Assembly (NCBI RefSeq): GCF_000003605.2
Contig: NW_003108581.1
Location: 464,690 to 493,385, forward strand
Length of the DNA stretch: 28,696 nucleotides
From: Saccoglossus kowalevskii
Taxonomy: Eukaryota > Hemichordata > Enteropneusta > Harrimaniidae
Reading direction: 5' to 3'
Below are positions 8,377-24,739 of this stretch, piece after piece. The translations under genes and the position numbers were made by a program. The notes under the pieces were generated by a model. The model made no database searches, was not told the DNA's origin, and saw only the letters and a program-made list of their open reading frames with translations. The number at the start of each line of letters is the position of its first letter. The first letter of the stretch is position 1.

Positions 8377-8467
8377 TCAATCTACAATATCTGGGAGACA
8401 TTTCTCGTAAAGACACAAGGCTTGGTGGATGAACTCGTACTGTTCATTTGTTTGTATCATTCCACCT
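8377..8467 (-). CDS. PTPRR: Terminal coding exon: Q-loop and C-terminus
   Basis: It reads RGGMIQTNEQYEFIHQALC and ends CLPDIVD followed by TGA (8377-8379). Q488 is the Q-loop glutamine that positions water for hydrolysis of the phosphoenzyme. The C-terminus stops soon after the last PTP helix, as in single-domain KIM phosphatases, so there is no second D2 domain. Acceptor ctatttcag. Confidence 0.96.
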
Positions 8468-11400
8468 CTGAAATAGAAAAAAAAGCACATGTCATGTAAT
8501 GACAAGAAATTCATGATGATTCTGGAAATATCAGAGCATTGCTACAGCCATTATCCCTCATTTTGGCCCATGCAAACAGGAGAAAATTGCTTTCATGGAT
8601 TTTAACGTTTTTCTGTTTTTGACTCCTGTGTGCAGATTACACAATGGGAGTCTTTGCAGTTACCCTGTTTGTGTGTGTTTATGTCTATTCCACAATTATC
8701 TCAAGGTTTGTGAAATGTCGGCAGCATACATGTACTATGATGGTACACGTGTAAACAACACTGCCAAAATAACTTGTGTCAACTTTTTCAGATTCATTTG
8801 TTTTTATGTGGATACCACAGCATGTGGATGACGGTAGCCAGTCACAACACCCAACTATACACTCACTGTGCTCAGTAAAAAGTGTGTCAATTCACAACAC
8901 AATACATCAATTTGTATTCTCTTAGTGCAACCATCAATCACAATCTTACTCATTTGGTTATGTTTGTATGCATGCATCTTAGTTCAAATGATTGAGCCTA
9001 CCTATCAAGCCTCATTAGACATACAATTCCTAGTATATCCACCATGCTTTCTTCTATAAGTTGCAGCACTCCTATACTGATAGCAATAAAACAGCCAGTT
9101 CTACCCAAACCAGCACTGTGTAAGGAAACGAGAACAACACTTGAAATTGAACAACAAAGATTTTAGTGAAAAGTTAAACACATTAGACACTGATGCAATG
9201 TATATAAGTGTACCTAAATTACTGTCAAGATGGTGATTGGCTAAAGCACCAGTCGATCATCATACAGCGCTAATTTTGGCAGGAGTTCTTTAGGGCCCCT
9301 CACCCATAGCTCTAATCTTAACCATGCTTCTTCAATGACCCTCTCCTATATCAATTGTATATACCCTTCTTTGGGACACTTGTAGTTATTTGGAAGGACA
9401 TATTGAATTACATTGGGGGGGCTGGAGTGTTAGGGGTGAGGGACCTTAAGGAATTCTTTTCCTAAAACTGTACCGCTACCAATAGTAGTAGTGATTTAGA
9501 GTAAACCCAACAGTACATGTGAATACTCACAATAAGGCCAAAAAAAAAAAAACTTATGTTGCCCTCAAATCGAATAATTTTGTCGGTCGGTCGGATTTTT
9601 TTTTTTTTTTTTAAATTTGGGAAAACTAAGAGTATCGTAAATAGCCAAGGTATATGGACTTCATAGTATTCGGAACATGTCAGAGAAATACAGATCAACC
9701 CGAGGTTCAAAGTCGCCACTTATGGGGACTCTGGGGATCAAACAATGGTCCGGGATCGTTAATTTTTAGAGGAAACACTTTATTACTGCTTAAAATAGCG
9801 AGTTTTTAATATTTGGGCCTATTTAAAAAAAAAACAAAAAAAAACACAACCCGATATTTTATATTTTTCAGTCGGTCGCTGAGGCCAACAAAACAATTTT
9901 TTTTTTTTGGCCTAAAGGATGTAAATCTTATACCGCATAACAGTGTGGCTACAAAGTGGCTGTGATGCAGTGATTCGTACTTGAAACACTTACCTGCAGT
10001 GTACAACCACTGGTCCTATTGCCTCGTCCTCATCGTCATCTCTTCGATGTCTTTCCACATCTTCTACAAGTTCCAGCAACTGTTTGGCAGTGTCTGGCGT
10101 TTTATGATCTGGCCAAGCAGTGTACCAGTAATGCTTGACATGCCTAACTTCATCTAAGTACTACATTAGAAGAATTACAAATTGTTAATCTCACTGTATG
10201 ATGATACATTGTACTCAGAAAAATCATCTGCATATTGGGTCATGTAACAGCCACTCACTAACACCACAGCAGGCATTAGGACACATACAACGACGTTTGA
10301 CGTTTAACGACGTTTGACGTTTGACGTTTAAGCACAAAATAATCAAAAGTACATAGAGCTTTCGGTTAGCACAATGTATTTTTCCACCTTCAAACTTTAA
10401 CGGGTGGTTGTTGTTGCAGAGTGAGTGTTCGAATTTCATACAATCAAAATAGGTATTTTAAATGTACTGCGTACATCGCTACGGATCTCAAGTTGAACAC
10501 AATATGGTGTGACAACCAACACTTTAAATGAAATCCAAGAAGGCCACACCACCATAGACAGACTATATCATACTATGAGGTAAAAACAATGGTACTTACC
10601 TTAAGCGTCATAATTCTAAGTATATAGCCATCTTTTCTAATAATATTATCTACACAAATTTCTATATCCCCATAAATACCCTGTGTGTGGGGCCAATAAT
10701 GCTCACACTTCACCTACAAAAGATGATAGGAAATATTGAACAATGTATACCATGTTTGCTCTATTCATAGAGCATATGTGCTTTTTATAAATGACAGGTG
10801 TGACTGTGGTCAAAATAAGTGAATTTTAATGATCCAGGCAACAGTAAATGTACTATACCATAGTTAGTAATACGCTGTATTTGCAACCATTTTCTATACA
10901 TTTTGACTTTAACTGAAATCATTTAATAATTCTATCTACTGGAAAAATGAATTGAGTCAACAAAACCAAACACTATATAGTAATGAACATGTAGGCGTTA
11001 TAGTCAGTTTATGGCATTTTTTAAAATTAATCTGGACAAGAAAGCAAACAGTTGATTCGCTGTACCTTCCCAACAACCTTACCTTATTCCTTTCTTTGAG
11101 CTTTGTAATCATAACAATAATTGGTGCATTGGTAAACCATATCATCCTCCAAAAATCATTAATAGTATGGGCCATTGGACCTTGCGTGGCTATGAATGCG
11201 CTCTCTTCCTGCTCATAGCCCTGCAAACAAACATAAAAGAGGCGATTATAGCAATTGTTATATGGTTCATCATGAATAAAGGAAGTGACACATATTACGT
11301 TGTGAGACATTATTAGTATACTCATCATATGTGTATATGTAGTAATACTGCACATATGCTCTAGATCTATGGTTCTGGTTGCGTATTATCAAAAGATAAT

Positions 11401-14400
11401 ATTTTCAGAAATCTTACAAGACTGTTTCTTATAGGCTACCCAATTTTAACACTTAATTATTCAGCCAATCTAGGAATGTAAACCGTGTTTCACTGCTGAT
11501 ATTATGAGGTTATTACGAGGATACCTCAAAGTATGCACAAAGACAGTACAACGTGCAGCAGAGGTCGATGTGACAGCGTACTGTCTGATTGCACACTGTG
11601 AGGTATCCTCGTAATAACCTTATTATTATACATCTTTTCCTTCCAAGGATACATCATGGGAATGCCGAAATCCAAAAAGTTTAGAACAGACTCAGCAAAC
11701 TTCTTTGAGTGGAGTCCGGTCAAACCCTAGTGGCACCCATGTTTGTTTTTATTATTAGAGGACACTTATGCAAGTAATCATCCCATATTTGGAGTTCGCA
11801 TTTCCTTATAGGGTAGAATGAAAATACCCCGTAAAATACCGCAAAATCGCGGCACGCTGTAACTTACGATGTTACGGTGACAGATATATAATAATAATGA
11901 ATAATTTCCATGTGGTTTATACGATGAATCAACACTACTATACATGTACCATTACATGCCAATATGTGTATTCAAATACTTAATACTTACACGTATATAG
12001 TTTGCATTTATATACGTTGACAGAGGATCACTGTTGATCTCTGGTAATATAACTCTAGTATGCAAATTAGGTAATATAGTACGATATCTGTTTTTAGTTC
12101 CTGACCCTGGTACATCTATGGCTTCGGGGTGATTCATTGGAATATCCTGAAAAAGCAAATTAAGTTATTAAATATTATCGATAGTTGACGAATCGTCACC
12201 GTAAACTGCTTTAATATTGTGAGAGACACATTTTCGCAAATTTGTAGCATTAATAATTTCTCTAGTCTCAAATGATCCAATGTCATCAAAAATTAAAGAA
12301 TTTGGTTATAGTGCTGTGTCTGTCTTTACAGAATTTAGTGATGCAGAAACTAAGCAATAATTCTTGGAAAAAAGAATGTGTGTGTTTTGAAAATTAATAC
12401 TATACATACCCAGAATTCCTCATGTAGAGCTCGTACATTTTTTAAAGAATTTCTTAATTGTTTTCTAGTCATTCTGTTACCGGCTGATGACAAGTACTCC
12501 TCACTAGAACTGAAACAGAAAATCATGAAATTTAATTAAATATAGCTGATGTTTTTCTACCACTATCCGTCACTTTAGCATTTGGGAAATGCTTCATTCC
12601 TGGAAACTTGCACTGTGGTGTCCATGGGCGCAGCATGGTGATTTAATCAACATGTGCACGTAACAGGACAAACAGCGATCATTGCGCTAATTCTTTCCCT
12701 CATTCGGAATCCTATGCAACTTGCATTCTAGCTGTTGTGAACAGTTCAGGTCAAATTATTTTTTTTTAGTGGTTTTTGTCACTACATACTGTATATACCA
12801 AACATAATGGCTATCTGTAAAGGCAGGTAGCAGTTGATGTGTGGAAATGCCTGGAAGTATACAACAAGCATGGAAACTGAATGAATAATTACCTTTCCTT
12901 GGGAGGCGTTCCATAATGTATTCCCCCAGTGGCACCACCTCTTCCGTTCAAATCAATCGTCAGTGATGCATTCGATCCTCTCCTAGAAAAAATAAAAAGG
13001 CTTTTCATTTCAACTTGTTGTACGTACCCTTTAGTAAATTGTACATTTTTGTACAAGATTTATAATATATATTTACAACTTGGTTACGAGGCACCCAACT
13101 TTTTTCCTTTCAAAATCTTATTGCAATTATTATCAGAATGCCTAATGAATGCATTTTAGTAATTAAAAAAAAAGACCGGTTTTGAATACTTATTAAGCTG
13201 GGTACATTTTTCCAATAACGTCAGTATAAGTACAGTCGATTTGAATTTTTAGAAAATTAAACTTTGTGATTATAAATAAATTTTCAATTTTTTTGTTTTA
13301 ATTGTTCTATAAAAATAAGCTCTGCTTGTGAAACTATTACATTGTTGCTTATTTTGAGTCTAATTGTAGTTTTAAAACCTGTAGACTCATGTCTGCATGA
13401 ATCCCTTCAGAGTATGTATAGCGCCACCAAGTGTGCTTCACTGACAACAAATCAGCTTTTTGTCAGTCAGAATTTACTCTTCATTTACGGCAAGAGGTAA
13501 AAATTTCTTAAATTTGCAAGACATTTAGTAGTAAACTGTACAATTCATGTAACATTTTCTTAAGTAAGCTTAATATACAACGTGTTTACTTTTATATTTT
13601 TTTTCTTTTCTTTATTTGTCTTGGATACAAGTTCAATAATTATTATTATTACAACAACATAATAGAATCATTAGTAAGCAAGACGTGAAATGACAAGCAA
13701 CACAGCGCAGTGTTAATTTTGATGATTTCCTGAAAACAATTAATTCTTACTCGTTTTGTTAAAGCATTTACAAGACATCAAGAATGCTGCTCAGGTTCAA
13801 GTACACTATACACAACAGTCATGTATGCAAAACTTGCATTATCAGCACCACGTCTGAGCATCTTACCTTTCCAGTAAACCTGGTGCTTTAATGATTTTGA
13901 TTGGTTGACTTCTTGCTACAGGTGCATATATCTGACCAGGTTCGGGTTGAACCATTCTTCCAGTCTTCAGCTCGGGTTTAATAGGGGGATAGAAACACAC
14001 ATGGGTCAACTCCTTCTCGGCTTTCTTTCGTCTTCTACGTCTGATACAACAGTAGCATGTCTAAGGAATGGTGCAAACCAACAGTATGATTAATGACTCA
14101 CAGTAAAGGGTTAGCCAAGGATGTCACTTTTGCACCTACCCATGCATCTCAGAACAATTTCTCTGACAAGGAGAAAACTAACAAGCATACAGGGCCCAAT
14201 TACTTAATTGAGACTGTGCCCTAGAGTAGTAATATGTCTGAAACTACCCCCAAGAATGAATTTGCAGACACCATTAGATAGTGCTCTGTATGTTAAAGGA
14301 CTTGTTATTATAATGGTGACTGTACTAGACCGACTTGATGCCCATGATGGCCTTTCTATTACTAGGGTCAAGTTCAACTTGCCGCTGATAGAGTTTCTGA

Positions 14401-17400
14401 ATAATCAAATTAGAGAATGAATTTTGTAAATTTAGACTACTATGTAAATAGGTAAACTATGCTTCATTAATTATCTGTAGAAAGGTATACTTTTTAAAGC
14501 ACACTCAGTTTAACTTTCAATAATTGCTAATCACCAGTTTCATGTCTTTTTTTTTTACATGGAAATCAAATCAACAGATCATACTCCACTTCATGATTGC
14601 ATTAAAAAAAATACATATGGTAAGTTTTCGCCAATATTCAAGAACTCAGAGATTACATCCGTACGACCAGCATTCTGATTGTTCAATAACACCTGAACTT
14701 GCAAGTCAAAGTATGCTGTTTCATGCAAATCATGCAGGTATACAGCATGGCGAAAATTACTTCGCATCAAGAGTTTGCATGAAATCCAAAACTAATTTGA
14801 TAACTAAGATAATGATGAGGCTCTCGACTTTTTTCCCCACAGACTCGATTAATTATTACATTATGAATTTTCGTGGTACATTAATAAATCTGTAAAAATG
14901 AAGTTTTTTTTATTTTCTATAATATAATAATTTTAATAAATAATTAATACTGTGGAATACTTTATTTTCGCTGGAATTAATTTTCGCTGAAAAGTCTTTT
15001 TGGGTGTTTGCTTGGAATTTATTTTCACTGAGTTTTGATGAGTTTAATGTGAAATATAGGAAAAAAAAGTATATTCGCTGGATTTTATTTTCACGGAATC
15101 ATCCCTTCAGCGAAAATAGCGAAAATAAATTCCAAGCGAAAATAAAGTAATCTACAGTATATAATTTTCTGAAAGGGGGGGGGGGGATTGTCCAAGTCCC
15201 AACTTCTTAAAAAAAAAAAGATTTTTGTAGCTAAATACTTATTGTCACATACCGTAACATTTAGTTTTTGTTGCTATCAAGTTTCACTATATGAAAATTT
15301 GTGGGATAAAATTTTGCTAAAGAAACTGTAATTGTAAACTCAGATCCAAATGAAATAAAGCGAAAAAACATATCAAGAATACATAAGATTGCACATTGGC
15401 AACATGATCTGATAAACACATGCAGAGGCTTTTATAACAATTTAAATACACTCACCACTGCTACAAGTAGAACAAACACGGCAGCTGCAGCCCCAATAAT
15501 ATATGGGAAATAACTGGTTTCATAGAAAGGAACATCTGTATAATCCACAGAATACACCTGCTGAAGTAAATATGAAAATAAGGTCACTTTAATATATTGC
15601 ATGCCAGTGAATGGATGCTGTCTATAGGCAGGCATCAGAGCTTGAGTTTGTAATCAAATTACTGTAAAATACATTATTTTCGTTTGAAATTAATTTTCTA
15701 TTTTCACTGAAGGAATGATTCAGTGAGAATAAAATCCAGCAAATATACTTTTTTTCCTATATTTTACATTCAACTCATCAAAAATCAGTGAAAATAAATT
15801 CCATACAAAACAACCAATAAATCTTTTCAGTGAAAAATTATTCCAGCTAAAATAAATTATTTTACAGTAGTATGAATGCATGGAGACTGGTCTTTCAAAA
15901 ACAACTCCAGAAACAGCGTTCACACATTAGGTGTTAAACCTAACACTGGTATTCTCATCAACCCACTTTTATAGCTGAAAAGGAACTTGATAGTGCTACA
16001 CATTTGTGGGAACACTAGCAATGGTTTCTGGGTAAACACAAAGTAACCCAAAAGATGTTGTAATACTACGGTATCCACTCTCATGACATTAATTTACAGT
16101 TGTAGACGTATAGTCTAGAGATAAAGGCTGAGACAAATTATTTATGATACGATTACAAGTTTTAATATAATAAAGACCCTTCCTCTCTTCCCAACCCTTC
16201 TATTCTCTGAATACGCTATTTACATTTATGAATGAATGAATAAACATTTCAATGAAATACATTTTGTACAGATGGATACAAACTGAAAATTCCTATACCT
16301 ATGCATACTATCCAGATACAATGAACATACCGGTAACGCTCAACGATAGACCCTTCACAATTAATTACATAAATTTAACATAAAATTCCTAATATATTGC
16401 ATTTATTATCATTAACCTGTCAGCTGACATAAAAAACATGTCACAAAGAGCATATCACTTACATGCAATATGTTTGTTCACTGCGTATGAATTTAGAAAA
16501 TACAAAGGCTTGTTGAAGGCTAGTGGTTGTTTTGATTGAGATGGAACTTTTTTTTTTCAAAAGAATACAAATATTAATTTCAAGCTCTTTTTATGTCTGA
16601 CCTCATTAGTATGATTAAATATCAATTTGCATAACAATACATATTACAATATACCATAGTAACATGAAAATATACATAATTAGATAAATATACACACAAG
16701 ATTAGCACAATATCCTCGGGGGCGGACATCCGGGCATTTTCACCGCTTGGCAACCCTCGCGGTGAAAACAAAGGTCAAAAACTCGCAGAAAACGATACTT
16801 TGGGATGGTTGTTGAGACTCCCCTGAACAGTGTAACAATATTAGCCCTACGTGTGTAACATATATAAATTTAGTTATTCAGGATTACTTCAAAGTTAAGT
16901 TTGTGTTGTTTTCTCGAATTTTCACCGGCTCAACCGGCGTTCCACGGCAGCGCACACAGAGCCCATAGAAATACATGTACAGTGGTGCGCGTCTTAACAA
17001 CGTGGAACGTCTTGTGACGTAGCTCCGCCCCCGAGGATACATATATTAAGGCAATACAGTCATCCTTTAGAGCATGTTCGAATTTCATGTAAACAAACAT
17101 CTCGCCATGGGTCCCATAATGAATGAACAGGACATGGTGTGACAACTGTAGCACTTCAACATACCATATTAATTAACATACCAACAGTATAATTATACAT
17201 ACCTGTGGATATACATCATGTATGGAAAAATCAGAAAGTAAACTATTAAGTTGGTCTAAATCTAATTCACTGACTACATCAGCAGCTGGTATTAGGTCAC
17301 TTTCGCTATAACCGGTGTCATCACCGTCATTCGTACCAATAATATACATATCGTACACATTATCCTGCAATATGAACAGACATATTTGAAATTACATGTA

Positions 17401-20295
17401 CATGTTGACATCACTAATTCATGCAAAGAAAAAAATATTTGCTGCCACCATGGCTAATATTATGTTTTCAATAGCTACCGGTAGTTACTAACATGTTTAT
17501 ACCCACTCAATAACATAACATTATGAAATATTACAGTATTCTCATATTTATGTAACAGAATTATTAAATACGTCTCCTAAAAGCATGTTTTTAAATGATG
17601 ACTTGTTTCTCAGAAGAATTCTTGGTTTGGAATTGCTCTTTAAAAGTGAAGGACATGACTTAAAACAGTACCCTTGACCTGTTATACAATGTAATATCAA
17701 ACCAAAAAAATAAAACATTTTTAACATAAATAACTATTGAAAAAATACTGAGTTTTGTTTTTAAATTTAGAAATATTGTACTTTTGTTTATAGAAAACAT
17801 ACAGAAATTGTGGCACACGGACAGTGAAGTACGTTTCATCTCTTCAAGTGATAGCAATAGCTAAGAGATACAAATAAGAGCACAGTGTAAAAAAAAAAAA
17901 AATACTAGACTACTCATAAGTAGACTGAGTGACTTGAATACTATTACGCCGTTCAATAACCTTTATCATATTCACTTACACTAACAAATAAATAAACCAA
18001 TTAGGCTTCAGCTTATTAGGACTACTTGGTTTAATTATAACTACTGCAAATGTTCTAATTTAGGCTGATAAAAAAATATCTCTGTTTCTCGTTTCCATGC
18101 GCATCATTTTGAACTAAGCGCCTCAAACGTTTGTTTTTCCTTCTAAAGCATTCCAAAATGTGCTTTTACTCGCACTTGTCTCAAATTTCTCTTATTTTAG
18201 CTCAGTATTCAAAAAAAATAAAAAAATGTCTCGCCGCCTCATTTTAAAATTTCCATGAAACGAGTACCAGAGAATATTTTTTCCTCAATCAAAGGGAAAA
18301 AAGATATAATTATATGTTGACTGACATGATTCAGAGACAAGTTTTGAGATCAGAGTTTATATTTGAATGATGTCAAATAAATGCAACTGATACCACTGTA
18401 AAATCACTGTCATTATAATACATATTGCTTTGCATTTTGTATGAATCTATCACATAAAAACACATTAAATAGTAAACATATTAAATTGCTAGTCTTAATT
18501 GCTCTAATTAATATAACAGTTGCCAAATCAAAGAAATTCATCATTTGAAAGCCACTTTTTTCAAACCCAAGTTTTAGCGCATAATTTTTTTTATGACCTT
18601 TCTTTGTTTTTCGAAATGGACATAAATTCCCCTTCGCTATGATCAAAATCGCTGAAAAAATGAGGAAACATGTTATTTTGTGAATGTTGACAAGAGTTAC
18701 ATGCAACTTTGGTGTTCAAGCGATTAATTAATGTTTCCAACACTCAGCAAAATATATCAAAGAATATAGACCATACAGTATGTATGACACGTACAATCCA
18801 TTACACAGAGGGATAGTTTTGACAGGGCCTTATGTTTTTAAAATCAGATAAATGACTAATACACAGCATAAATGCATTATCACTGTCTTATTGTTTGCTT
18901 CAATCGTTAATGGGAAGATTAATACCATTTGGACTATTGGACTACGATTGAATTATTGGCCAGGCTAAACAAACTAAGTTTGAATGGAACAGCAAATAAA
19001 CTCGGAAATGTATTCCCTATCTTTTAATTTTTGCTATTTACACCAAAAGTGAAATTTCAATTCCAATACATGTTACAGCAAGTCTAAGAAGTATTGGGGC
19101 AGCCAATTTGCAAACTTGCTAGCGAATTGGCTAACTGCTTTGGTTTTGACTGAGCTGTTGGCTTTCGAATCTCGCTGGCGCCGTCGTGTGGTCACACCCA
19201 CTCTGGGTGAATCTATATAACAGTAGGAGATGGTCATCATACTTTAGTTGGATGGCGATTTCGCTTTCAAATATACAAGGGACAGTGTTCTATTTTCTTT
19301 GTGTGACGAGGTGTTTGTATACAAGGGATTGTCCACGCAAAAACAATGAATGAAGTCGAATGTTATTAGCAGTTGGTTTAATGTTACCCCAAAGAATCAT
19401 TTGGATGTGAAAATTTATTTTTCTCCCTGATTTATCGGGAACTGTTTCTCAATTTGTCTCTTTATTTACTTTCAATCAGTGTTCAAGATGGCTACCCCGA
19501 TTTAGTAAATATCGGTGGATTAGTCACATTTATCATATTACCACTTGTACGCCAGCTGACTGTGGCCATTTTCAGGCTGACCAGGGAAACTACTTTCACA
19601 TTATCACGCCTCGCAAAGCAAATCATTCAGGGCAGTCCAGACATGTACAAGGCTACATAAAAGCTTACTATAAAAAGTCCCCTAATGCAGTATAGACTTG
19701 CCAAGAGTGGACGACAACGATTCAACGCAAGCGAGATGGGAAAGCCAACTGTTTAATCAAAACCCAAGCAGTTACCCAATTCGCTAGCGAGTTTGCAAAT
19801 TGGCTGCTCCAATACTTCTTAGACTTGCTGTAATGGTAGTTAACATTTAAGTTGATGTACCGGTACTTTAACAAAGTAATAATGCCAATTTGGGAAGTTT
19901 AAATTTTTGTTGCAGCCCTATCACAGGTTGTGTGCTGTCATGGCACATGTGTGTTACTGAAATCCTTCAGTTTTGTATAGAAATTCAATAGGGCAAAGAC
20001 CTCCAGAACCTCAATGTACATACAGTAAACTACATGTTCTTTCAACTACAAACCAGCTGCTTAGCTCATTCAGTAGAATGGCTATGTATGCTCCCCAATC
20101 TGAAAGTCATGCTTATACATTGATCAATAAAGAAATTGTTATTAACCATGCTGAATAGAAATCACTGAAATAACAAAGACCTACCTGGTTGTTTAGTATA
20201 ACTATATTGTTTTTTGAAACAGATAACTTGGAGGCTAAAACAGATAATAGCACTTCTTTTTGACTTTCATTCAAGACTTTGTTTCCACCAATTTC
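8377..20295 (-). CDS. PTPRR: Receptor-type KIM-family protein tyrosine phosphatase (PTPRR-like), 12 exons, 5' partial
   Basis: This gene encodes a membrane phosphatase expected to dephosphorylate phosphotyrosine in ERK/p38 MAP kinases. CDS join (minus strand): 20295-20185, 17364-17203, 15557-15456, 14060-13867, 12982-12893, 12509-12410, 12146-11991, 11220-11083, 10713-10600, 10160-9994, 9115-9002, 8467-8377. All introns are GT-AG, the phases agree, and the reading frame stays open for 512 residues. Numbering from the first residue seen: ectodomain 1-106, transmembrane helix ~107-131, basic stop-transfer 132-138, kinase interaction motif 187-201, PTP domain ~250-512. Catalytic features are KNRY 271-274, WPD 405-407, nucleophile C444 and R450 in HCSAGLGRTG, and Q488. 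The combination of a membrane span and this docking motif points to PTPRR rather than cytosolic PTPN7. PTPN5 also has membrane forms, so orthology is likely but unproven. The signal peptide and N-terminal exons were not found. Confidence 0.93.
9002..9115 (-). CDS. PTPRR: Exon: rest of the P-loop and following helix
   Basis: It completes HCSAGLGRTGCFIAISI and continues to IVCLMRLD. R450 is the phosphate-binding arginine. The P-loop has Leu where most KIM phosphatases have Ile (SAGIGRTG), a conservative change that should keep activity. Acceptor cttacacag, donor gtaggc, phase 2 at the end. Confidence 0.97.
9283..9456. repeat. Short inverted-repeat element
   Basis: The arm at 9283-9305 (begins gagttctttagggcccct) and the arm at 9434-9456 (begins gggtgagggaccttaagg) are inverse with 19 of 23 matches. 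They enclose about 130 bp in the intron before the Q-loop-side exons. It is probably a degenerate miniature element. Confidence 0.5.
9533..9913. repeat. Foldback element with GGCC-(A)n termini
   Basis: aaggccaaaaaaaaaa at 9534 followed by tatgttgccctca is mirrored by tgaggccaacaaaaca then T12 and ggccta (about 9880-9913), giving imperfect TIRs of about 35 bp. gtcggtcggtcgg (9583) and cagtcggtcgc (about 9870) lie inside. It sits about 80 bp from the WPD-loop exon. Confidence 0.6.
9994..10160 (-). CDS. PTPRR: Exon: WPD loop and active-site cysteine
   Basis: It starts YLDEVRHVKHYWYTAWPDHK. WPD carries the general acid D407. It ends VVVHC plus two bases of the following Ser, so the catalytic P-loop is split by the intron immediately after C444. 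Between the two motifs lies a charged stretch, RHRRDDDEDEA, where mammalian relatives have a less acidic linker. Acceptor taatgtag, donor gtaagt. Confidence 0.97.
10291..10330. repeat. GACGTTT short tandem array
   Basis: Five GACGTTT units, one junction extended (ttaacgacg), in the intron between the WPD exon and the one before it. Each contains an ACGT core resembling a CRE half-site. This is probably simple repeat expansion. Confidence 0.75.
10600..10713 (-). CDS. PTPRR: Exon: PTP domain central strands
   Basis: It reads VKCEHYWPHTQGIYGDIEI and ends YILRIMTLK (38 codons, phase 0/0). C-x-x-Y-W-P is the conserved segment after the ITKLKE region of PTP domains. Acceptor tttgtag, donor gtaagt. 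Confidence 0.96.
11083..11220 (-). CDS. PTPRR: Exon: PTP domain core
   Basis: It reads GYEQEESAFIATQGPMAHT, then DFWRMIW and PIIVMITKLKERNK (46 codons, phase 0/0). FIATQGP and DFWRM are hallmark motifs of classical PTP domains. Acceptor tttgcag, donor gtaagg. Confidence 0.97.
11504..11622. repeat. 45-bp-arm foldback hairpin in an intron
   Basis: tgaggttattacgaggatac at 11505 continues to gacagtac (about 11549). It is inverted as gtactgtctg (from 11578) to cgtaataacctta (11622). The arms are about 45 bp with roughly six mismatches, around a 28-nt loop. It could be a tiny foldback transposon or an unusually long intronic hairpin precursor. Confidence 0.7.
11991..12146 (-). CDS. PTPRR: Exon: PTP domain, phosphotyrosine-recognition loop
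   Basis: It runs from DIPMNHPEAIDVPG to STYINANYIR (52 codons, phase 0/0). It contains the substrate-recognition loop KNRYRTILP and the classical YINANYIR strand. The IPMNHPEAIDVPG lead-in resembles KIM phosphatases more than other PTP subfamilies. Confidence 0.97.
12410..12509 (-). CDS. PTPRR: Exon: linker and first helix of the PTP domain
   Basis: It reads SSEEYLSSAGNRMTRKQL and on to NVRALHEEFW. A Ser/Glu-rich linker is followed by the helix that precedes the PTP fold in KIM phosphatases. Acceptor tgtttcag, donor gtatgt. It completes the split serine codon and ends in phase 0. Confidence 0.9.
12893..12982 (-). CDS. PTPRR: Exon: MAPK-docking kinase interaction motif (KIM)
   Basis: Joined to the previous exon it reads LLERRGSNASLTIDLNGRG, an almost canonical KIM. 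In mammalian PTPRR, STEP and HePTP the basic pair plus hydrophobic L-x-I/L dock ERK1/2 and p38, and PKA phosphorylation of the serine after RRG releases the kinase. Here that serine is S193 (RRGS fits the PKA consensus). Further on, HYGTPPKES places a Thr-Pro (T215), a candidate MAPK phosphosite in the specificity segment. The target roles are known for the family and inferred here. The donor leaves phase 2. Confidence 0.95.
13867..14060 (-). CDS. PTPRR: Exon: stop-transfer and juxtamembrane segment
   Basis: The exon starts TCYCCIRRRRRKKAEKE. Cysteines finish the membrane helix (possible palmitoylation sites) and a block of Arg/Lys follows, as expected on the cytosolic side. A Pro-rich juxtamembrane stretch (FYPPIKPELK, later QPEPGQIYAP) leads to APGLLE, the first residues of the docking motif. 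The last codon is split (phase 2). Acceptor ccttag, donor gtaaga. Confidence 0.92.
14948..15159 (-). mobile_element. Miniature TIR transposon, copy 1 of 4 (inverted orientation)
   Basis: A 212-bp element with termini TACTGTGGAATAC and gtaatctacagta, and repeated attttcgctgg/ccaagcgaaaat blocks. Its reverse complement aligns along its whole length with the copies at 15660-15869 and 20393-20603. The ends fit a non-autonomous element with TA target duplications (Tc1/mariner-like, inferred). It lies in the intron 3' of the transmembrane exon. Confidence 0.85.
15175..15186. repeat. G12 homopolymer
   Basis: Twelve G in a row just beyond the miniature transposon at 14948-15159, followed by a later A10 tract. 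Sequencing length error is possible here. Confidence 0.85.
15456..15557 (-). CDS. PTPRR: Exon: transmembrane segment (34 or 35 codons, phase 0/0)
   Basis: The exon encodes VYSVDYTDVPFYETSYFPY and then the hydrophobic run IIGAAAAVFVLLVAV, which is nearly all of the single transmembrane helix. The donor is GTG|gtgagt. The acceptor is a tandem cagcag, so the exon can end at 15557 or 15560, adding one Gln. It is phase 0 at both ends, and skipping it removes the membrane anchor while keeping the frame. Oppositely oriented copies of one miniature transposon flank it (14948-15159 and 15660-15869). Confidence 0.92.
15660..15869 (+). mobile_element. Miniature TIR transposon, copy 2 of 4
   Basis: A 210-bp element starting TACTGTAAAATACATTATT and ending aaattattttacagta, with near-perfect TIRs. 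It lies in the intron 5' of the transmembrane exon, in opposite orientation to the copy at 14948-15159. Confidence 0.87.
16711..17039. mobile_element. GC-rich miniature TIR element
   Basis: The 16-bp terminus TATCCTCGGGGGCGGA at 16711 is repeated as an exact inverse at 17024-17039, enclosing 329 bp. Outer TA dinucleotides fit a TA target duplication. Inside is a perfect 10-bp hairpin (ttttcaccgc at 16737-16746 with gcggtgaaaa downstream) and a cggctcaaccg dyad. It is far more GC-rich than the surrounding intron. No transposase frame is visible. Confidence 0.8.
17203..17364 (-). CDS. PTPRR: Exon: ectodomain part 2, acidic (54 codons, phase 0/0)
   Basis: It begins DNVYDMYIIGTNDGDD and ends SIHDVYPQ. 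The acceptor is atattgcag and the donor gtatgt. The segment is strongly acidic and contains a strand (MYIIG), an acidic loop (NDGDDTGYSESD) and a helix rich in D/E/L (VVSELDLDQLNSLLSDF). It lies just outside the membrane. Length is exactly 162 nt, so the exon can be skipped without a frameshift. Confidence 0.85.
17811..17902 (+). repeat. Poly(A)-tailed short dispersed sequence, copy 2
   Basis: Identical to 701-780 over 80 bp, with a tail of 14 A. It is inserted in the intron between the two ectodomain exons, antisense to the gene. No clear target-site duplication is visible. Confidence 0.75.
19073..19833. mobile_element. Non-autonomous DNA transposon with ~90-bp terminal inverted repeats
   Basis: TTACAGCAAGTCTAAGAAGT at 19073 is mirrored at the right end (acttcttagacttgctgtaa, to 19833). 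The similarity continues for about 90 bp per arm (to about 19166 and from about 19738) with roughly 90% identity. TA flanks suggest a Tc1/mariner-type duplication. The 760-bp interior has a 68-codon open frame (19454-19660) that resembles no transposase I recognise. It lies in the 2.8-kb intron between the two ectodomain exons. Confidence 0.82.
20185..20295 (-). CDS. PTPRR: Exon: ectodomain part 1 (37 codons, phase 0/0)
   Basis: The reverse strand reads EIGGNKVLNESQ and continues to VILNNQ. The acceptor is ttgtcttgtag and the donor gtaggt. An in-frame TAG inside the acceptor rules out extension upstream. The pattern is an amphipathic helix (about residues 10-25) followed by a beta strand (NNIVIL). 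Together with the next exon this fits a small helix/strand membrane-proximal domain of the SEA/ferredoxin-like type, which is inference. One N-glycosylation sequon (NES) is present. This is the most 5' exon I could recognise. Confidence 0.8.
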
Positions 20296-20392
20296 CTACA
20301 AGACAAAAGATTCCATTATAGAAATGTTAGAATAAAAAACATATGTAAATCTGTAATTTACAGCTTTCAAATGATAAGTTTCATTAAACAAG

Positions 20393-20603
20393 TACTGTAA
20401 AATACTTTATTTTCGCTTAGAATTAATTTTCGCTATATTCGCTGAAGGGATGATTCAGTGAAAATAAAATCAAGCGAATATAACTTTTTTCCTATATTTT
20501 ACATTCAACTCATCAAAAATCAGTGAAAATAAATTCCATACAAAACATTCAAAAGTCTATTCAGTGAAAATTAATTCCAGCTAAAATAAAGTATTTTACA
20601 GTA
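20393..20603 (+). mobile_element. Miniature TIR transposon, copy 3 of 4
   Basis: A 211-bp element and the best-preserved copy. The TIRs run about 25 bp with one mismatch (starts TACTGTAAAATACTTTATT, ends aaagtattttacagta). It sits about 100 bp upstream, in gene sense, of the ectodomain exon at 20185-20295. Confidence 0.88.
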
Positions 20604-20664
20604 TAAAATTAATGTGCCAGTAATTAGTTTGCATTATGAAAAACAAGTAGCCTATCGGCTGAGA

Positions 20665-21183
20665 TAGCTCCGCTGTTAGCAATGCACATTTCAATTAAAG
20701 AACTGAAGACATCATTAGAAAATGAACAATATGAATAGTATCAAAGCAATCGGACTTACAGTTTTTAACAAGAAGTCGAAAATATCACTTTTTACCAAAA
20801 ATTACAAAAATATTCACCAAAATAAATAGAGAATTGAAGATATCATCACAAAACAAACAAATCTGAGAGAGGTCCACATGTAGTACCTATATATGTAATA
20901 TCAAAGCAATCGGACTTGCGGTTTTCAACAAGTAGTTGAAAATATCACTTTTTACCAAAAATGACAAAAATATTCACCAAAATTAGAGAATTGAAGATAT
21001 CAACATGAAATGAACAAACCTAAGAGAGGTCTACCCAAGGTACATATACACCAAGTATCAAAGCATTCAGGCTTGTAGTTTTCAAGAAGAAGTCGAAAAA
21101 GTAAAACAATGACACGGACGACGACGACGACGGACAATCACTCATATGATAAGCTCCGCTCGACAAAGTCGACAGCGGAGCTA
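20665..21183 (+). mobile_element. Modular repeat with hairpin terminus, family A, full copy
   Basis: Ends are TAGCTCCGCTGT (20665-20676) and the inverse ACAGCGGAGCTA (21172-21183). The interior holds three monomers of about 160 bp, each with tcaaagcaatcgg-type and gtcgaaaatatcac-type segments (at 20741, 20901 and 21058). Next comes a gacgacgacgacgg tract and a terminal hairpin, GCTCCGCTCGAC-aaa-GTCGACAGCGGAGC. Similarity to the other copies begins slightly earlier (about 20635), so the true 5' boundary is uncertain. No coding capacity. Confidence 0.75.
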
Positions 21184-24542: not shown

Positions 24543-24739
24543 TACCGTAAAATATTTTAGCTGGAATTAATTTTCGCTAAAAGACTTTTTGGTATTTTGT
24601 AAGGAAATTATTTTAACCTATTTTTGATGAGTTGAATGTTAAAATAGGGTATATTCGCTGGATTTTATTTTCACTGAATCATTCCTTCAGTGAAAATAGC
24701 AAAAATTAATTCCAAGTGAAAATAACACATTTTACAGTA
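24543..24739 (-). mobile_element. Miniature TIR transposon, copy 4 of 4 (inverted orientation)
   Basis: A 197-bp element starting TACCGTAAAATATTTTAGC and ending aacacattttacagta. It has the same internal blocks (ggattttattttcactgaat, ccttcagtgaaaatagc) in the same orientation as 14948-15159. It is slightly deleted relative to the other copies. Confidence 0.82.

Follow-up and report, generated by a model that had tools for sequence, protein, structure and literature searches.

The phosphatase gene and its membrane-span exon

We analysed a window of 28,696 nucleotides from Saccoglossus kowalevskii (contig NW_003108581.1, positions 464,690 to 493,385), in which the exon for the membrane span of a putative PTPRR-type receptor phosphatase lies between two oppositely oriented copies of a miniature inverted-repeat transposable element (MITE). 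Positions below are those of the window. On the minus strand we modelled 12 exons of the gene, which run from 20295 to 8377 and close with a stop codon. The most upstream modelled exon (20185–20295, 111 nt, phase 0/0, its incoming phase taken from the open frame alone) is followed by an exon of 162 nt (17203–17364, phase 0/0), by the membrane-span exon (15456–15557, 102 nt, phase 0/0) and by an exon of 194 nt (13867–14060, entered in phase 0 and left in phase 2) with a basic juxtamembrane stretch, after which a kinase-interaction motif follows. The exon at 12893–12982 carries the sequence RRGSNASLTID, which we take to be this kinase-interaction motif (KIM). Seven further exons (12410–12509, 11991–12146, 11083–11220, 10600–10713, 9994–10160, 9002–9115 and 8377–8467) encode the catalytic domain and the stop codon.

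Compared with Pfam, the protein joined from all modelled exons but the last matched PF00102 with an E-value of 1.3e-65. In a comparison restricted to solved structures, the two best PDB sequences were the PTPRR chains 1jln and 2a8b, and below them ranked two-domain receptors (PTPRS, LAR) and then PTPN5 and PTPN7. The catalytic domain nearest to PTPRR, the KIM-like motif and the single membrane span identify the gene, as far as its sequence goes, as a PTPRR-type, KIM-containing receptor protein tyrosine phosphatase. Genome searches, here and below, were run on the 572-Mb assembly that contains the window; the search for PF00102 returned 47 exon-level matches, 3 within this gene and the others elsewhere. 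No signal-peptide exon was identified among the 12 exons, and the 10 kb past the window edge on the upstream side of the gene are all N.

The membrane-span exon reads VYSVDYTDVPFYETSYFPYIIGAAAAVFVLLVAV in translation, its acceptor and donor are usable, and its splice sites look ordinary by eye. It holds most of the membrane span, with a few residues spilling into the next exon. For the part of the protein encoded from exon 20295 to exon 13867, the best 19-residue hydropathy is 2.52 with this exon and 1.31 without it. The sequence-only reading of the window had predicted that skipping this exon would keep the frame and delete the span, which agrees with our model: joining 17203 to 14060 stays in frame and loses 34 residues. 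The exon is flanked by introns of about 1.4 and 1.6 kb. The acceptor is a tandem CAGCAG (NAGNAG) at 15558–15563, and use of its upstream AG would add one glutamine N-terminal of the span.

Four copies of a TA-ended miniature element

Searching with an nhmmer profile of four copies, we found four copies of the element in the window, named E1 to E4; eight weaker matches come from reading parts of these copies on the opposite strand. E1 (14948–15159, plus strand) is a full-length copy of the approximately 211-bp element, assigned to a young subfamily, and lies in the intron downstream of the membrane-span exon. E2 (15660–15869, minus strand) is full-length, appears older and lies in the intron upstream of that exon. 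The third copy, E3 (20393–20603, minus strand), is also full-length and has the orientation of E2; E4 (24543–24739, plus strand) has the orientation of E1 and is internally shorter, at 197 bp. Thus, two full-length opposite copies bracket the membrane-span exon, as the sequence-only reading had described. They align end to end with 85.6% identity over 209 aligned columns, including 4 gap columns. By coordinates the exon is separated from E1 by 296 nt and from E2 by 102 nt, and E1 from E2 by 500 nt, practically the spacing given earlier (297 and about 100 bp, with a loop of about 500 nt).

The copies measure 197–212 bp, and in each the 70 nt at one end pair with the 70 nt at the other (−30 to −62 kcal/mol). 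Folded alone, each copy forms a hairpin of −47.6 to −66.6 kcal/mol. All four start and end with TA, a putative target duplication. These sequence features mark the element as a TA-ended MITE with long terminal inverted repeats, probably of the Tc1/mariner-like kind. The family is large, with at least 2278 first-look candidates in the genome when E1 served as the query and at least 3448 with E2, from each of which 40 candidates were scored. By description, the element resembles the hairpin-forming MITE-like elements in the promoter and introns of haemoglobin genes of the clam Lucina pectinata (PMC4732748; this and later papers are cited from excerpts), for which the excerpt describes no inverted pair around an exon. 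An exact search with the element pattern gave 0 matches in two non-animal collections (viral_contigs and genome_contigs), and a search with E1 in phage records, likewise a non-animal collection, found nothing.

Predicted pairing between the copies

All folding was performed in silico, with neither proteins nor kinetics in the model. E1 and E2 are predicted to cofold at −220 kcal/mol, compared with −111 kcal/mol for the two self-folds, and the cofold energies of the four opposite-orientation pairs range from −208 to −247 kcal/mol. We rejected the idea that the copies pair regardless of orientation, as the same-orientation pairs (−109 and −118 kcal/mol) are close to the sums of their self-folds (−109 and −116 kcal/mol). 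Self-hairpins that outcompete the duplex were likewise ruled out, both by the cofold energies and by a partition function over 3.5 kb that included both flanking introns, where 184 E1:E2 pairs are expected and self-pairing is negligible. The folding of 14948–15869 proposed in the sequence-only reading also gave the anticipated result, as this 922-nt region folds at −313 kcal/mol versus −177 ± 6.4 kcal/mol for 20 shuffles, 21 standard deviations below them.

The outcome depends on which copies are folded together. E1:E3 cofolds at −247 kcal/mol and is thus stronger than E1:E2. In a fold of 14940–20612, which covers 5.7 kb and three copies, E1 pairs over 191 nt with E3, and E2 goes to other pairings; a trimmed three-copy fold also gave E1:E3. 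When all four copies were folded with distant sequence trimmed, E1:E2 and E3:E4 formed in both of two folds, E1:E2 returning because E3 pairs with E4. The earlier proposal of a duplex of about 200 bp that loops out only the membrane-span exon therefore holds in part: the duplex is strongly predicted when the stretch itself or the flanking introns are folded, but the optimum becomes E1:E3 with E3 included. From these models the E1:E2 duplex is plausible, as one outcome among others. In a growing transcript we would expect the nearest opposite pair to be favoured, which is E1:E2, as E2 lies 500 nt from E1 and E3 5.2 kb.

Relative age of the copies and selection on the pair

E1 is 95–97% identical to 40 other full-length matches listed, 12 of which reach 97%, and seven of these matches, taken for comparison, are 98–100% identical to one another. 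The closest relative of E2 among the matches listed is 91% identical. These identities point to E1 as a young insertion and E2 as an older one. With nearest relatives at 97 and 91%, respectively, it is most likely that E2 was there first and that E1 completed the inverted pair recently.

None of the four opposite pairs is less identical than E1:E2, and of all six pairs, which range from 83.2 to 90.9%, only one is. Seven of the E1:E2 mismatches are tolerable as G:U on the transcribed strand and six on the other strand. Comparing identity among the four window copies, and G:U mismatches of E1:E2 between the two strands, we saw no sign that complementarity is kept better in this pair than in the others, and the low identity together with the lack of a G:U bias thus gives no sign of maintained pairing. 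We also looked for a second allele or paralogue without one of the copies. The 500 bp between E1 and E2 match only their own locus in the assembly, and the same locus was the sole match there for the protein encoded by the membrane-span exon and the next exon.

Other repeats in the window

The intron that contains E2 also holds, at 16711–17039, what is apparently a second, unrelated miniature element with inverted ends (TATCCTCGGGGGCGGA and its complement). The GC content of 16710–17042 is 47% compared with 33% for the window, and blastn (1e-3) found no second copy of this element in the window. A stretch of about 760 bp at 19073–19833, in the intron that separates exon 20185–20295 from exon 17203–17364, has 108-bp ends that are 90% complementary. 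Diverged repeat blocks with units about 150–157 bp apart are shared between 600–1240 and 20652–21123, and a 95-nt piece at 693–787 recurs at 17803–17897 with 98% identity. Finally, an intronic compact inverted repeat lies at 11501–11626, with 49-nt arms that are 86% complementary and 28 nt between them. Scans of the window for tRNAs (bacterial code) and for Rfam families (gathering threshold) were empty.

Origin of the arrangement

The sequence shows the copies and how they are oriented, the exons of the gene, a thermodynamic capacity of the copies for pairing and which of them is older. From this we consider it likely that the arrangement arose from neutral, chance MITE insertions that would give rise to a local intronic RNA hairpin, perhaps an edited one, with the membrane-span exon mostly included. 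Two independent insertions of this abundant TA-ended element, the older E2 and the recent E1, would have come to lie in opposite orientation by chance, in the two introns around the exon. In the pre-mRNA they would, at least at times, form an imperfect E1:E2 hairpin of about 190 bp, on which A-to-I editing may act. Most transcripts would still include the exon, and any skipped or circular RNA would be low-level and unselected. Inverted intronic repeats around exons are already known as a feature, and E1/E2 is one more such pair, built from a MITE.

The frequency of such arrangements was estimated by random placement of four copies in the window, with its twelve known exons kept free. Some single exon was bracketed by an opposite pair, at any span, in 20% of trials. 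In the genome, we inspected 1.5-kb flanks at seven other E1-like loci (L002–L008), which are the best matches to E1 and not a random sample. An opposite copy lies within about 1.1 kb at two of the seven, and a second copy is absent from the other five. At L007 the opposite copy is full-length, and the pair (786–1712) measures 927 bp from end to end, compared with 922 bp for the studied pair; at L002 it is partial and the outer span is 1070 bp. We also rejected the 0/0 phase of the membrane-span exon as a mark of design, because 6 of the 12 exons are 0/0 and 8 are symmetric.

Several results weigh against a neutral origin. When only spans of at most 922 nt were counted in the random placement, some single exon was bracketed in 0.6% of trials and the membrane-span exon alone in 0.08%. 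A Poisson model with the copy density sampled elsewhere gave 2–4 per 100,000 per exon, a noisy Monte Carlo figure that rests on few events and ignores the clustering of copies. The pair surrounds the very exon whose loss would change the location of the protein most. E1:E2 gains strongly over self-folding and, despite the lowest identity, ranks second by energy among the four opposite pairs, a rank that it owes to the shorter E4. Moreover, effects on splicing have been published for intronic repeats in opposite orientation (PMC2533698, PMC8330042).

The density used in the Poisson model is a weak estimate. The 19 stretches behind it, all on contigs from the E1 match list, amount to 190,000 bases, of which 114,763 are not N; in these, 3 copies, including a weak one, reached 140 profile columns or more. 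In a wider sample of 230,000 bases, 92,075 of which are N, the remaining 137,925 bases contained 4 copies that pass the same limit, and one of these scored only 28 bits. In the window, where 28.7 kb hold 4 copies, the density is about five times that of the sequence sampled elsewhere. If about 200,000 exons are assumed, a handful would be bracketed this tightly by chance.

Possible consequences of the pairing

Among the more specific consequences, it is quite possible, and we hold it tentatively, that the main effect is A-to-I editing of the intronic duplex with the protein unaffected. An intramolecular duplex of about 190 bp resembles the substrate edited between opposite Alus (PMC2533698, PMC526178), and lophotrochozoans are reported to have ADAR homologues (PMC6651903).

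We think it unlikely that the E1:E2 duplex loops out the membrane-span exon so that a meaningful fraction of the mRNA, still in frame, lacks the span and yields a PTPRR that is soluble or secreted. In favour of this, folding strongly predicts the duplex, and the skip would take away the one strongly hydrophobic span in the part modelled from the ectodomain to the juxtamembrane stretch. The sequence-only reading had cited two kinds of precedent here, and the literature bears out both, the first in principle. Inverted repeats can promote skipping and circular RNA: opposite Alus can move an exon to alternative use (PMC2533698), and in C. elegans zip-2 removal of either intronic match nearly abolished the skipped and the circular RNA alike (PMC8330042). 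Likewise, mammalian PTPRR has membrane and cytosolic forms, which arise from different promoters, splicing and start codons (PMC1761141); the cytosolic isoforms of the mouse are made by other routes. Ptprr is also listed as alternating between membrane forms of type I and type II (PMC1449889), and the excerpts of these two accounts of the same phosphatase family mention no transposon pair.

The precedents resemble the present pair only in part. The Alus (Lev-Maor et al. 2008, PMC2533698) are, like E1 and E2, short, abundant mobile elements in opposite orientation that are able to pair beside an exon. However, Alu is a SINE and the tested RABL5 pair sits in one intron, whereas E1 and E2 are copies of a DNA-transposon MITE in two introns, with a predicted pairing and a putative effect on splicing. 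The nearer tested Alu was 24 nt from the exon, and sequence inserted between the two raised inclusion, but E2 is 102 nt away; in addition, Alu:Alu pairing partly relieved the skipping caused by one Alu alone (PMC2533698, PMC11263572). zip-2 and other circular-RNA exons share with our locus complementary matches in both flanking introns, with a joint effect on skipping and back-splicing proposed (PMC8330042). Those C. elegans matches were tested in vivo and the 13-nt match of zip-2 is conserved in five nematodes, whereas E1/E2 is a young, long pair with a putative effect. Against looping out also speak the lack of a selection signal, the recent arrival of E1, the ordinary splice sites and the shift of the optimum to E1:E3 once E3 is included. 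The evolutionary version of this scenario, in which the recent E1 turned the exon into a partly skipped cassette that gives a soluble or secreted PTPRR form by transposon-driven looping, and in which E1 may still be polymorphic, is improbable as well.

It is also unlikely that the effect lies instead with the more stable E1:E3 duplex, which brackets three 0/0 exons (20295–20185, 17364–17203 and 15557–15456) and would act on a block comprising the ectodomain part and the span. The cofold energies (−247 versus −220 kcal/mol) and both three-copy folds favour it, but once E4 is included both trimmed folds have E1:E2 together with E3:E4 as their optimum, and E2 would be favoured as the far nearer partner of E1. 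We hold it very unlikely that the pair makes the membrane-span exon back-splice by itself into a circular RNA: the same duplex would serve, and inverted repeats in introns are known to promote circular RNAs (PMC11263572, PMC8330042), but single-exon circles come from unusually long exons (human and mouse medians of 169–253 nt, depending on the source) with flanking-intron medians of 5.9–8.4 kb in HEK 293 cells (PMC6376117), compared with 102 nt and introns of only about 1.4 and 1.6 kb here.

Taken as a whole, the interpretation in the sequence-only reading is partly supported; it missed that the copies form hairpins on their own, that E3 and E4 compete for pairing and that 0/0 is the commonest phase in the gene. 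If skipping is real, the locus would be a clean case in which a pair of DNA-transposon copies, and not of Alus, decides between the membrane and the soluble form of a receptor phosphatase. If it is not, the locus illustrates how abundant short transposons can bracket exons in inverted pairs without consequence. The youth of E1 may allow individuals with and without the insertion to be compared, which is the main reason for keeping this locus in view.
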